Assembly: GCF_005144965.1 (NCBI RefSeq)
Contig: NZ_CP039704.1
Span: 2,216,001-2,280,000, forward strand
Direction of reading: 5' to 3'
Length of the DNA stretch: 64,000 bases
Origin: Hankyongella ginsenosidimutans
GTDB taxonomy: Bacteria; Pseudomonadota; Alphaproteobacteria; Sphingomonadales; Sphingomonadaceae
Below, one piece after another: positions 3,449-18,369 of this stretch. Position 1 is the stretch's first letter; each line of letters opens with the position of its first letter. The position numbers and the translations under genes are program-made. The notes beneath the pieces were generated by a model that saw nothing but the letters and a program-made list of their open reading frames with translations, had not been told where the DNA came from and made no database searches.

Positions 3449-4362
3449 TCAACCGCTGAGCGGGGAAACGCTGCTGATGAGGCCTGCCTGCACCGGGCAG
3501 CCCACCTGCTGGACGATGCTGTGTCTCAGCTTGGCGAGCGCCTGCGCCTCCAATTGGCGTACCCGCTCCTTGGATATTCCCATGCGGTCCCCAGAGCTGC
3601 AAGCGTAAGACTGTCGTCACGCAGCATGCGGCTTTCAAGGATCGTGCGTTCGCGGGCGGTGAGCCGCGTCATTGCATCCTGCAGAACGGCGACGCGCACG
3701 GCGTCATCATGCTCGGTCTCGACCGCTTCATCCGGTTGCGGATCGTCTGCGGCGAGAAAATCCTGCCAGCTTCCTTCGCCGTCTTCTGTCATCGGCGCGT
3801 TGAGCGACCGGTCGCCGCCGGACAGCCGAGCCTCCATGGCCTCGACGTCGCGCGGCCGAACGCCCAGTTGCTCAGCAATCCGGGAGCGCATCACCGTGGA
3901 CATTGGCCCTTCGTTTTCAAGGCCGGTATCGCCGGCGATCCGCGCGCGCATGCGCCGCAGGTTGAAGAACAGGCTCTTTTGCGCCGCCGTGGTGCCGGTG
4001 CGCACGATCGACCAGTTGCGCAGCACGTAATCCTGCATGGAGGCGCGCACCCACCAGGACGCATAGGTGGAAAAGCGCAGCGCGCGGTCGGGATCAAAAC
4101 GTGCGGCTGCTTCCATCAAGCCGATGCAACCTTCCTGCACCAGGTCCGCCATTGGCAGGTTGTAGGCGCGAAAGCGCGCCGCCATCGCGATTACCAAACG
4201 CAGATAGGAGCGGATGAGCGTGGCCAGGGCCTTTTCGTCACGATCGTTGCGCCAGCGTCGCGCCAGATCCCATTCATGGGTGCTTTCCAGCATGGGGGCA
4301 CGGGTTGCCGCGCGTGCGAGATCGGCGATGTCCGCATCGAATGGTCTGCGCGCCTGGCCCAT
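3449..4362 (-). CDS. rpoH: RNA polymerase sigma-32 factor (heat-shock type)
   Basis: Alternative sigma factor of the RpoH/sigma-32 group, which directs RNA polymerase to heat-shock promoters. Region 2 is clear (ADLVQEGCIGLMEAAARFDP, RFSTYASWWVRASMQDYVLR). A version of the RpoH box, AQKSLFFNLRRMRARI, follows it. Region 4 ends with the helix-turn-helix ERVRQLEAQALAKLR. The ATG at 4362 is chosen over GTG at 4368 because AGGAGGT lies just upstream. One base is missing near 3587 (G run after GCTCT); the true end, SSVSPLSG, is in the next frame. The repaired length of about 304 aa is normal. It lies downstream of the epimerase gene on the same strand, separated by a two-hairpin repeat. Confidence 0.9.
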
Positions 4363-4380
4363 GCGCACCTCCTGTACCCA

Positions 4381-7336: not shown

Positions 7337-8340
7337 ATGACCGCACCTGCCGCAAGCGCCATCTCCACGCCGGATATGACGGTGAGCGCCCGCGATGTCT
7401 TCGGGGTTGACGTCGACTGGCAGGTGCCGGCGTTCTCCGCCACCAGCGAGCATGTGCCGGAACGCGATGAAGCCTATGTGTTCGATCCGGATACGACGCT
7501 CGCTGTCCTCGCCGGCTTCACCTACAATCGCCGGGTGATGATCCAGGGCTATCACGGCACGGGAAAGTCGACCCACATCGAGCAGGTTGCAGCGCGCCTC
7601 AACTGGCCGTGCCTGCGGATCAACCTCGACAGCCACATCAGCAGGATCGACCTGGTCGGCAAGGATGCGATCGTCCTGCGCGAAGGGCAGCAGGTGACGG
7701 AGTTTCGCGAGGGCATTCTTCCCTGGGCATTGCAGAGCCCGACAGCGCTGGTGTTCGATGAATATGACGCCGGACGCCCGGATGTGATGTTCGTGATCCA
7801 GCGGGTGCTGGAAGTGGAGGGGCGGTTGACCCTGCTCGATCAGAGCCGCGTGATCCGGCCCAACCCTGGTTCCGGCTCTTCGCCACCTCGAACACGGTCG
7901 GGCTTGGCGATACGACGGGCCTCTATCACGGCACCCAGCAGATCAATCAGGGGCAGATGGATCGCTGGAACCTGGTCGTCACGCTCAACTATCTCCCGCA
8001 TGAGACCGAATGCGGCATCGTGCTGGCGAAGTGCCCAACCTACGATACCGACGCTGGCCGCAAGACGGTGGCGGCCATGGTGCGCGTCGCGGATCTGACA
8101 CGCCAGGGCTTCAAGGCTGGCGACATATCCACGGTCATGAGCCCGCGGACCGTGATCACCTGGGCGCAGAATGCACAGATTTTCGGCAATATCGGCTTTG
8201 CGTTCCGGGTTTCCTTCCTCAACAAATGCGATGAGGCGGAACGCGGCCTGGTGGCGGAATATTTCCAGCGCTGCTTTGGGGAAGACCTGCCCGAATCGAT
8301 CGTCAGCCGGGCGCACAGAGCGGCGGCGGCGCGCGCCTGA
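7337..8340 (+). CDS. cobS: CobS-type AAA+ ATPase (cobaltochelatase subunit family)
   Basis: AAA+ ATPase of the CobS family, which with CobT (and CobN) inserts cobalt during aerobic cobalamin synthesis. Seen: Walker A region [18 protein letters not shown], Walker [16 protein letters not shown], and the characteristic [19 protein letters not shown]. One base is missing near 7868: AACCCTGG should read AACCCCTGG, giving NPWFRLFAT. Repaired length is about 334 aa. AAGGA precedes the ATG. The usual cobT neighbour is absent; the next gene is a convergent histidine kinase. CobS-like proteins are also kept in genomes without cobN, so chelatase activity is not assured. Confidence 0.85.
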
Positions 8341-8349
8341 AACCCTGCG

Positions 8350-10093
8350 TCACACCGCACGCGACCGGTTGCCGGCGGCCAGCACCAGGCCTAGCCGCTC
8401 GATGTTGATCGGTTTGCCGACATAGCCGGCAAAGCCCGCTGAATTGAGGTCGCGGTCGATCTCGAACCGGCTGTTCGCAGAGACGGCGTAAATCGGCGTC
8501 TCGGTATTGGGGTTTGGCCTTCCTGCACGAAGGCGATGACGTCGAAGCCGTCGATCTTGGGCATGCGCAGATCAAGCAGGACCAGATCGAACCGTTCCTG
8601 CTGCAACAAGCGGATCGCATCTTCTCCGGAGCCGGCAAGCACGACATCCTGGCCGAGTGCCTTGAGCAGCACGTTCATGACCATCTGGTTGGTCGGGTTG
8701 TCATCGACGGAGAGCACGCGCAGCTTGGGGACCGCCACGCGGATGTCCGCACTCTCCAGCGGATTTTTGCTCGCAGCCGCCTCGCTTGCGATCGTGACGG
8801 GCATCTTCAGTGTGAAGGCGCTGCCGATGCCGTAAGTGCTCTCGACGCTCAAGGTGCCGTTCATAAGCTGCATCAGTCGCTGCGACAGAGCCAGCCCCAG
8901 GCCGGTTCCCCGAACTGGAGGGAGCGATCGAGTGTTAGCTGCGCGAACGGCTGGAACAGCATGGGCTGCAGATAATCCTCAATGCCGATCCCTTGATCGC
9001 GCACCGTGACGGTCAGGTTGGCGCTGCCGTTCTTTGGCTCATCCAGAGTGAAAATCAGCCGGATCTCACCCTTGAGGCTGAATTTCACGGCGTTCGACAG
9101 GAGATTGCTGATCACCTGGGACAGCCGAAGGGAATCGGCGCTCAATTGCACATCCGCCGGGTAATGCCGCTCCGTGACAATAGAGAGCCCCTTGTTGGCG
9201 GCCTGCACCTGCCACAGCGCCGCCTGTTGGGTGGCGAAGTCATCCAACGCGAACGCTTTCGGCTCGATGCGAATATGTCCGGCTTCAATCTTGGAGTAGT
9301 TCATGAGATCCTGCAGGATATTCTGCAGGGTTTGCCCGCTTTCCTCGATAACCGCGCATTTTTCACGAACGGTGCGGCTGCTGGTCTCCAGTGCGATCGC
9401 CTGCGCAATCCCGAGGATGGCATTCAGCGGCGTGCGAATCTCGTGCCCCATGGTGGCAAGGAATGCACTTTGGCGCGATTGGCTGCCTGGGCTGCGTCGT
9501 TTGCTTTTGCAAGCTCCGCCTCTGTCTGCGCGCGTCGCTCGACCTCTGCCCCAGCTCGTCGTTGGCCCGCTGCAACAGGCTGGTCCGTTCGGCGACACGA
9601 GACTCAAGGCTGTCATTGAGGGTGCGCAGTTCCTCCTCAGCCATTCGGCGCTGCGCCACCTCCTGCTGCAGGCTGGCGTTCACGGACCGCAGGAGGGCCT
9701 GGCTTGGCAGCGCAACGATCTTCGGCAAAAGTGGCCAGAGCAGCAACGCGGTCGCCGTGGAGACAATGGCCGTCGCCGTCTTGATGATCGCTTCGATGCC
9801 ATAATAGGGTGCCCAATTGACGATGATGCTCATGACGTGGGTCATGCCGCACAGCAGGATGAACAGGCTGAAGCAGTAAAAACAGGCCTGAATTCCCAGT
9901 CCTTACGAGTCGTGGCAACTTTGTAGATGGCGAACGGAATGCTGAAATAGGCGAGGGCGATCGCCGCGTCCGCTACGACATGCGTCCAGAGTAGTTCTTC
10001 GCGCCACAGGAAACAGGCACCATGGGGAAGTAGGCCCGGCGAACCAAGAAAATCCAGAATTCCGGCGGCCGATAGCTGAACGGTTGTCCACAT
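8350..10093 (-). CDS. Hybrid histidine kinase with ETR1-like ethylene-binding membrane domain and receiver
   Basis: About 582 residues. Residues 1-130 form a three-helix membrane domain matching the plant ETR1 sensor: ADAAIALAYFSIPF (D42, Y49, P53) and LLCGMTH (C82, H86). The spacing D-40-C-4-H equals D25, C65, H69 of ETR1, the Cu(I)/ethylene site. A coiled coil follows, then HisKA (phospho-His in GHEIRTPLNAILG), HATPase_c (SNLLSNAVKFS, DQGIGI, GTGLGLALSQ) and a receiver (DDNPTNQ, LVLLDLRMP, VGKP). Five one-base losses are needed (near 9853, 9547, 9472, 8912 and 8510), three of them in runs of G, A or T. GGGAGAG precedes the ATG. It is convergent with cobS. What it senses is inferred. Confidence 0.85.
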
Positions 10094-11273: not shown

Positions 11274-13841
<2,568 letters not shown>

Positions 13842-17535: not shown

Positions 17536-18369
17536 ATGGCACTCAAGACATACAAACCGACCAGCACCGCGCGGCGTGGCCTTGTCCTCGTCGATCGCTC
17601 GTCGCTGTGGAAGGGCAAGCCGGTCAAGACCTTGACCGAAGGCCTCAACAAGACCGGCGGCCGCAACAACAAGGGCCACGCGACCAACCGCACCATCGGC
17701 GGCGGTCACAAGCGCAGCTACCGGATCATCGATTTCAAGCGGCGCCGCTGGGACGAGCCGGCGACCGTCGAGCGGCTGGAGTATGACCCCAACCGCACGG
17801 CGTTCATCGCGCTCATCAAGTACCCGGACGGCCAGGTGAGCTACATCATCGCGCCGCAGCGCCTGAGCGTCGGCGACACCGTGATCGCCGGCCGCAAGGT
17901 CGATGTGAAGCCGGGCAACGCCATGGAAATCGGCAACATGCCGGTTGGCACCATCGCCCACAACATCGAGCTGAAGCCCGGCAAGGGTGCGCAGATTGCG
18001 CGTTCGGCTGGCGCGTTCGCGCAGATCGCCGGCCGCGACAAGGGCATGGTGATCGTGCGCCTGATGTCGGGCGAGCAGCGCCTGGTGCGCGGCGACTGCA
18101 TGGCTTCGGTCGGTGCGGTTTCCAACCCGGACTTCGCGAACCAGCATCTGGCCAAGGCCGGCCGCAACCGCTGGCTGGGCGTGCGTCCGCTGGTGCGCGG
18201 CGTCGCCAAGAACCCGGTCGACCACCCGCACGGCGGCGGTGAAGGCCGCACGTCCGGTGGCCGCCACCCGGTGACCCCGTGGGGCAAGCCGACCAAGGGC
18301 GCGAAGACCCGGCATAACAAGGCGACCGACAAGTTCATTGTCCGCAGCCGTCACGCGAGGAAGAAGTAA
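17536..18369 (+). CDS. rplB: 50S ribosomal protein L2
   Basis: 277 residues, intact. L2 is needed for subunit association and peptidyl transfer. The conserved [17 protein letters not shown], with the functionally important His, is present, followed by [21 protein letters not shown]. The N-terminal [17 protein letters not shown] is typical of alphaproteobacteria. Confidence 0.98.

Follow-up and report, generated by a model that had tools for sequence, protein, structure and literature searches.

A hybrid sensor histidine kinase from a probable Sphingomonadales lineage, likely a copper-dependent ethylene receptor

Bacterial ethylene receptors are already known, namely AzoEtr1 of Azospirillum brasilense and SynEtr1 of Synechocystis, and the gene described here is one more homologue. 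AzoEtr1 has been described as an ethylene receptor in which residues 1-130 bind ethylene, and the published account reports both ethylene binding and response in an alphaproteobacterium, as well as the presence of such domains in many bacteria (PMC11819568). As described there, AzoEtr1 contains a PAS domain, has the kinase as its last domain and is followed immediately by a response-regulator gene; its residues D35, C75, H79 and K98 are given by number (PMC11819568). SynEtr1 (slr1212), GeiEtr1 and GeiEtr2 are described as having an ethylene-binding domain with the seven binding residues and a single N-terminal cysteine, together with PAS and/or GAF domains and, in SynEtr1, a photoreceptor part (PMC6682694, PMC11819568). 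In Arabidopsis ETR1, C65, H69, I35, P36, I62 and D25 are numbered as in PMC6586836 and PMC11819568; I35, P36 and I62 are reported to be essential for ethylene binding and are not named as copper ligands in the passages concerned (PMC6586836). Plant receptors of this type are described with a GAF domain between sensor and kinase (PMC6586836). Ethylene in soil is said to come from plant, microbial and photochemical sources (PMC11819568).

The window, that is, the entire 64,000-nucleotide stretch of DNA analysed, encodes on its minus strand (8350..10093) a hybrid sensor kinase whose coding sequence is distributed over six reading-frame pieces (10093-9890, 9890-9546, 9540-9469, 9469-8912, 8915-8514 and 8514-8350, all minus strand). 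An intact 582-aa database copy, P0001, with 13 member sequences and located on a 2,970-base contig, is identical to these pieces in 572 of 573 comparable residues, positions adjoining the frame breaks being excluded. The profile comparison with the ethylene-binding domain that had been proposed earlier yielded a strong match of P0001 to Pfam PF25487 (ETR1_N; 112.2 bits against a cut-off of 27, E 1.5e-32), and the two broken halves of the domain in the host's own genome each exceed the cut-off alone (69.8 and 43.9 bits). Furthermore, the local alignment of P0001 with a plant ETR1 (P0122) scores 132, compared with a maximum of 56 in 500 shuffles. Among the best 60 of 244 matches to solved structures, none has its best-matching stretch in residues 1-130, and the ETR1 structure 4pl9 matches by the ATPase domain only; the best 25 of 134 NCBIfam rows all belong to kinase families and score under the respective cut-offs.

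All seven ETR1 binding residues are kept in P0001 as D42, Y49, I52, P53, I79, C82 and H86 (DYIPICH), which occupy the aligned columns of ETR1 D25, Y32, I35, P36, I62, C65 and H69; Y32 is included as in the original prediction. The codons of D42 (9968..9970), C82 (9849..9851) and H86 (9837..9839), all on the minus strand, were placed by alignment and residue check, the latter two residues corresponding to the Cu(I) ligands of ETR1. The coupling lysine is retained as well (K105, equivalent to ETR1 K91, for which a contact with the aspartate is predicted), along with T108 and S112 in helix 3. The peptides quoted in the original prediction are present in the pieces, and both the complete ETR1-type binding site that it claimed and its Asp-7-Tyr, Asp-11-Pro, Asp-40-Cys and Cys-4-His spacings recur in the intact copy (D42-Y49 7, D42-P53 11, D42-C82 40, C82-H86 4 and, in addition, H86-K105 19). 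The polar residues are nearly invariant among 85 representatives selected at 75% identity (84 bacterial and one plant), with D present in 82, C in 83, H in 82 and K in 80.

L144, a gene on an Azospirillum brasilense plasmid, is a 525-aa frame with D35, Y42, I45, P46, I72, C75, H79 and K98; because the printed residues fall at the same numbers, it is, judging by its sequence, AzoEtr1 or a near-identical counterpart from another strain, and it aligns with P0001 without a gap across helices 1 to 3. AzoEtr1 and the window protein are 46% identical over 111 domain residues (H16) and share the seven residues, the D-C-H-K spacing of 40/4/19, PHGxC before helix 1 and histidine-kinase output. Unlike AzoEtr1, the window protein has no PAS match and carries its own receiver, and no separate receiver gene adjoins it. 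The original prediction of a bacterial hybrid kinase with an ETR1-type site stands as far as homology is concerned, but the class was already known in proteobacteria from AzoEtr1 (PMC11819568).

With Arabidopsis ETR1 and the plant ETR1-type proteins, the window protein shares ETR1_N, the seven residues, the counterparts of K91, T94 and S98, HisKA and the receiver, but the plant GAF domain has no counterpart at E 0.001 in profile searches of P0001, the plant Cys-x-Cys before helix 1 is replaced by HGAC, and the plant loop between helices 2 and 3 is three residues longer. The same profile searches returned no PAS match, which also distinguishes the protein from SynEtr1, GeiEtr1 and GeiEtr2; these were compared by description, the sequences compared being those of three other cyanobacterial homologues. 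Homologues from Sphingobium (P0051), Bradyrhizobium (P0012) and Novosphingobium (L148) are 56-60% identical in the matched domain part and have HGxC, but their H-box is of the HDFNNLL type, whereas that of the window protein is HEIRTPLN. In the open-licence literature, no paper was found on ethylene binding in Bradyrhizobium or on ethylene reception in Sphingomonas.

Membership in ETR1_N, the seven residues, K105 and the spacing of a proven receptor support the originally proposed ethylene sensing and suggest that this hybrid sensor histidine kinase likely works as a copper-dependent ethylene receptor, a reading to which we assign a probability of about 0.7. Under the mechanism we propose, Cu(I) would be held by C82 and H86 and would bind ethylene in the outer half of the membrane, and a contact between D42 and K105 would carry the resulting change into the long helix that runs towards the kinase. 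Pieces resembling a P1B-type copper ATPase in the own genome would fit this reading, albeit all below that family's cut-off. Homology by itself does not specify which ligand is bound. The domain might hold Cu(I) while the physiological signal is copper supply, redox state or another small ligand, ethylene binding being incidental. This alternative is rather unlikely given that the counterparts of I35, P36, I62 and Y32 are all kept, and that AzoEtr1, whose binding residues and their spacing are identical, both binds ethylene and responds to it; nevertheless, it would accommodate the retention of C82 and H86, the further His/Cys pair in HGxC just ahead of helix 1, and the outcome for ACC deaminase, the sole ethylene-related enzyme sought, which was not found in the own genome in a search where 6 of 14 control genomes matched, none over the cut-off. 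A phototrophic lifestyle was also considered and dropped, as the own genome has no match to a photosynthetic reaction centre, for which the Synechococcus control was positive.

The AlphaFold2 model, built on a 74-sequence alignment (mean pLDDT 83.9, pTM 0.51, ten-residue blocks 41-120 at 86-94), predicts three helices preceding the kinase, with D42, C82 and H86 inside them. Predicted transmembrane helix 1 (residues 32-62; 9908..10000, minus strand) contains D42, Y49, I52 and P53, helix 2 spans residues 69-94 (9813..9890, minus strand), and helix 3 (residues 98-119; 9738..9803, minus strand) contains K105, T108 and S112. The original prediction was to fail if C82 and H86 lay apart or outside the membrane; in the model both are in helix 2, four residues or about one turn apart. 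As judged by residue counts, D42, C82, H86 and K105 are predicted to sit at similar membrane depth, their distances to the outer ends of the predicted helices being 10, 12, 8 and 7 residues, respectively. Because the number of helices is odd and the kinase should be cytoplasmic, the N-terminus is expected on the outside; Arg and Lys occur in the loop that joins helices 1 and 2 (RKDWEF). For ETR1, an ab initio model is reported to agree with EPR distances more closely than the AlphaFold model does (PMC13012798), so that helix packing in AlphaFold models of such a domain is uncertain.

Directly before helix 1, the window protein has HGAC (residues 24-27; 10013..10024, minus strand, coordinates by codon count), an instance of a juxtamembrane HGxC motif, in a stretch that the AlphaFold2 model renders at low confidence (pLDDT about 51). 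HGxC occupies this position in all 232 bacterial sequences that fit the core-residue pattern (of 255 domain hits), many of which were found via patterns that include the HGxC stretch. Among 53 loci recovered with the Pfam profile, whose start lies beyond HGxC, the motif is present in 39 of 39 pattern-fitting loci and 9 of the 14 others. The alignment comprised 369 sequences, 120 of them plant ETR1-type, six fragment rows (L001, L002, L025, L079) having been dropped beforehand. Among the bacterial representatives, HGxC is found in 76 of 76 that differ at no more than one of the seven binding residues but in only two (L096, L128) of the eight that differ at two or more, being missing in the other six (Fisher p 7e-8; 9e-6 when the two weakest homologues are left out; kinship being ignored). 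The motif is also present in the AzoEtr1 gene and in the three cyanobacterial homologues fetched, in one of which (L147) Gln replaces the coupling lysine. In place of HGxC, Cys-x-Cys is found in all 120 plant ETR1-type matches listed (of 1423), which are close relatives of one another. The PHGxC subfamily (PHGACFLWREELLW) suggested originally was indeed found to be a wider one, but it is not confined to proteobacteria, given that all three cyanobacterial homologues have PHGxC.

In ETR1, Cys4 and Cys6 are reported to form disulfides that link the dimer and help to retain ethylene binding on solubilisation, with the mutants still functional (PMC2799528), and the single N-terminal cysteine of cyanobacterial receptors has been suggested to link the dimer likewise (PMC6682694). 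In a search of the open-licence literature, which would miss motifs printed only in figures, neither the HGxC histidine nor the complete motif was found to be mentioned. HGxC may serve in the periplasm to bind copper or to form a disulfide; a role in copper entry is possible, the disulfide being the more conservative reading. In a more speculative scenario, which we regard as unlikely, HGxC would be a second metal site, common to working bacterial ethylene receptors, that passes periplasmic Cu(I) to the membrane Cys/His pair, and plants would have swapped in the Cys-x-Cys disulfide once RAN1 supplied copper in the ER. Being present wherever the sampled binding site is nearly intact, HGxC is a simple mutagenesis target for assessing copper loading or dimer holding. 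Two loci of the same class, L128 (G433, 7.3 Mb) and L129 (G417, 8.8 Mb), have degenerate ethylene-binding domains in 555-aa open frames, with Arg, Phe and Ala at the positions of ETR1 H69, Y32 and P36, respectively, and possibly represent a derived sensor for another ligand.

The hybrid HisKA-receiver architecture claimed for this gene is borne out by matches of HisKA, HATPase_c and Response_reg to P0001, all over their cut-offs. On the minus strand, the HisKA dimerisation/phosphoacceptor domain (residues 208-273, predicted phospho-His H218) maps to 9278..9475, HATPase_c (residues 321-435) to 8793..9136 with the break near 8912 inside it, and the receiver (residues 461-569, predicted phospho-Asp D509) to 8392..8717 with the break near 8514 inside it. 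The H-box HEIRTPLN is common to P0001 and P0002, the only two of 120 listed relatives with HExRTP, 102 having the HDFNNLL type and 16 neither. Assigned by simple motif class, the 84 bacterial representatives include 31 with HDFNNLL, 15 with HExRTP, six with HRxKN, two with GGDEF and 30 unclassified. Thus, by these motifs, the ETR1_N sensor is joined to several different outputs, as a review states for prokaryotic ethylene sensors generally (PMC7700396). A generic anchor would also allow such variety, and the three-helix domain could be imagined as a mere membrane anchor or dimeriser, with the kinase run by a coiled coil or partners; this is very improbable, the near-invariant intramembrane D, C, H and K being unexpected in a plain anchor. 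P0048 and P0093 combine ETR1_N with PAS and GGDEF and might be ethylene-controlled diguanylate cyclases.

If the protein is an ethylene receptor, ethylene would shift the balance between autophosphorylation of H218 and transfer to D509. No separate receiver gene was found beside the kinase gene, and the signal would for this reason leave via a separate phosphotransfer protein and response regulator; the receiver initially scored beside L001/L002 turned out to be the downstream piece of the kinase gene itself. A candidate carrier would be a ChpT-like phosphotransferase encoded elsewhere in the own genome, where an HPTransfase match occurs in two pieces; this link is a guess from presence.

Five frame breaks interrupt the kinase gene, near 9890, 9540-9546, 9469, 8912 and 8514. 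The first coincides with the start of predicted helix 2, and the domain order over the pieces is ETR1_N (N- and then C-terminal part), HisKA, HATPase_c and receiver. The one-base repair proposed originally gives a sensor spacing that agrees with P0001, but the four further breaks, in the linker, kinase and receiver, went unmentioned. Since the intact, near-identical P0001 exists, the breaks are most likely assembly errors, which the broken fusA, HPTransfase and copper-ATPase matches in the same assembly also indicate; the own genome, rated 86.7% complete with 6.5% contamination, has nine matches to a P1B-type-like copper ATPase, all below the cut-off and broken in pieces. A decaying pseudogene that senses nothing, as five breaks within 1.74 kb of this assembly might suggest, is exceedingly improbable in the face of P0001 with its 13 member sequences and of the other broken genes in this incomplete assembly, and this reading was dropped. 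fusA (elongation factor G; window 11771-13841, plus strand), located 1.7 kb from the kinase gene, is split over several frames, which points to frequent indel errors in this assembly.

On the other side, cobS (cobaltochelatase subunit; window 7337-8340, plus strand) is apparently split in two frames, and its end lies 9 bases from that of the kinase gene; Pfam CobS_N matches the N-terminal piece only, and the C-terminal piece, from its position, is presumably also cobS. An operon partner was sought and dropped because cobS converges on the kinase gene and rpsL, the other neighbour, points away. A promoter and terminator scan gave no promoter-like and one terminator-like site, no more than in shuffles, and Rfam over the whole window identified three tRNAs and nothing else. 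A sigma-70 family factor, matched in region 2 only (window 3526-4368, minus strand), is probably frame-broken near its C-terminus.

The host appears to belong to Sphingomonadales. Among the 120 listed relatives (of 8000 scored) of ribosomal protein L2 (window 17536-18366, plus strand), all 15 named rows are Sphingomonadales at 78-82% identity, from Sphingomonas, Sphingopyxis, Sphingobium, Sphingomonadaceae, Thermaurantiacus, Pedomonas, Polymorphobacter and Zymomonas; the first four belong to this order, and the last four were verified as members. Identities above 84% occur in only two of the 120 (96% and 88%), and the host accordingly seems to represent a little-sampled lineage. EF-Tu does not point to Sphingomonadales: it is 87% identical to that of an alphaproteobacterial MAG, the best match, 85% to Rhodopseudomonas, 84% to Bradyrhizobium and 81% to Sphingomonas, in a comparison of 12 genomes behind named loci, five without full-length EF-Tu and one from Sphingomonas. 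What is new here is limited to this host lineage, the compact hybrid architecture found there and the HGxC statistics; the bacteria that can probably sense ethylene gain a probable Sphingomonadales lineage whose hybrid kinase bears a receiver and lacks PAS and GAF matches.

Searches recovered ETR1_N from 6 of 59 relatives, from 22 of 196 genomes sampled within the same order (about a tenth) and from 29 of 398 sampled across the phylum (28 over the cut-off); each figure counts the own genome, which is incomplete and shows a single ETR1_N gene. Among 72,556 plasmid records, 18 carry ETR1_N, including those of Azospirillum, Novosphingobium and cyanobacteria. On plasmid p2 of Novosphingobium sp. 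ES2-1, which is typed as conjugative, the ETR1_N kinase (L148) is accompanied by an overlapping response-regulator gene, with a type II cas9 nearby.
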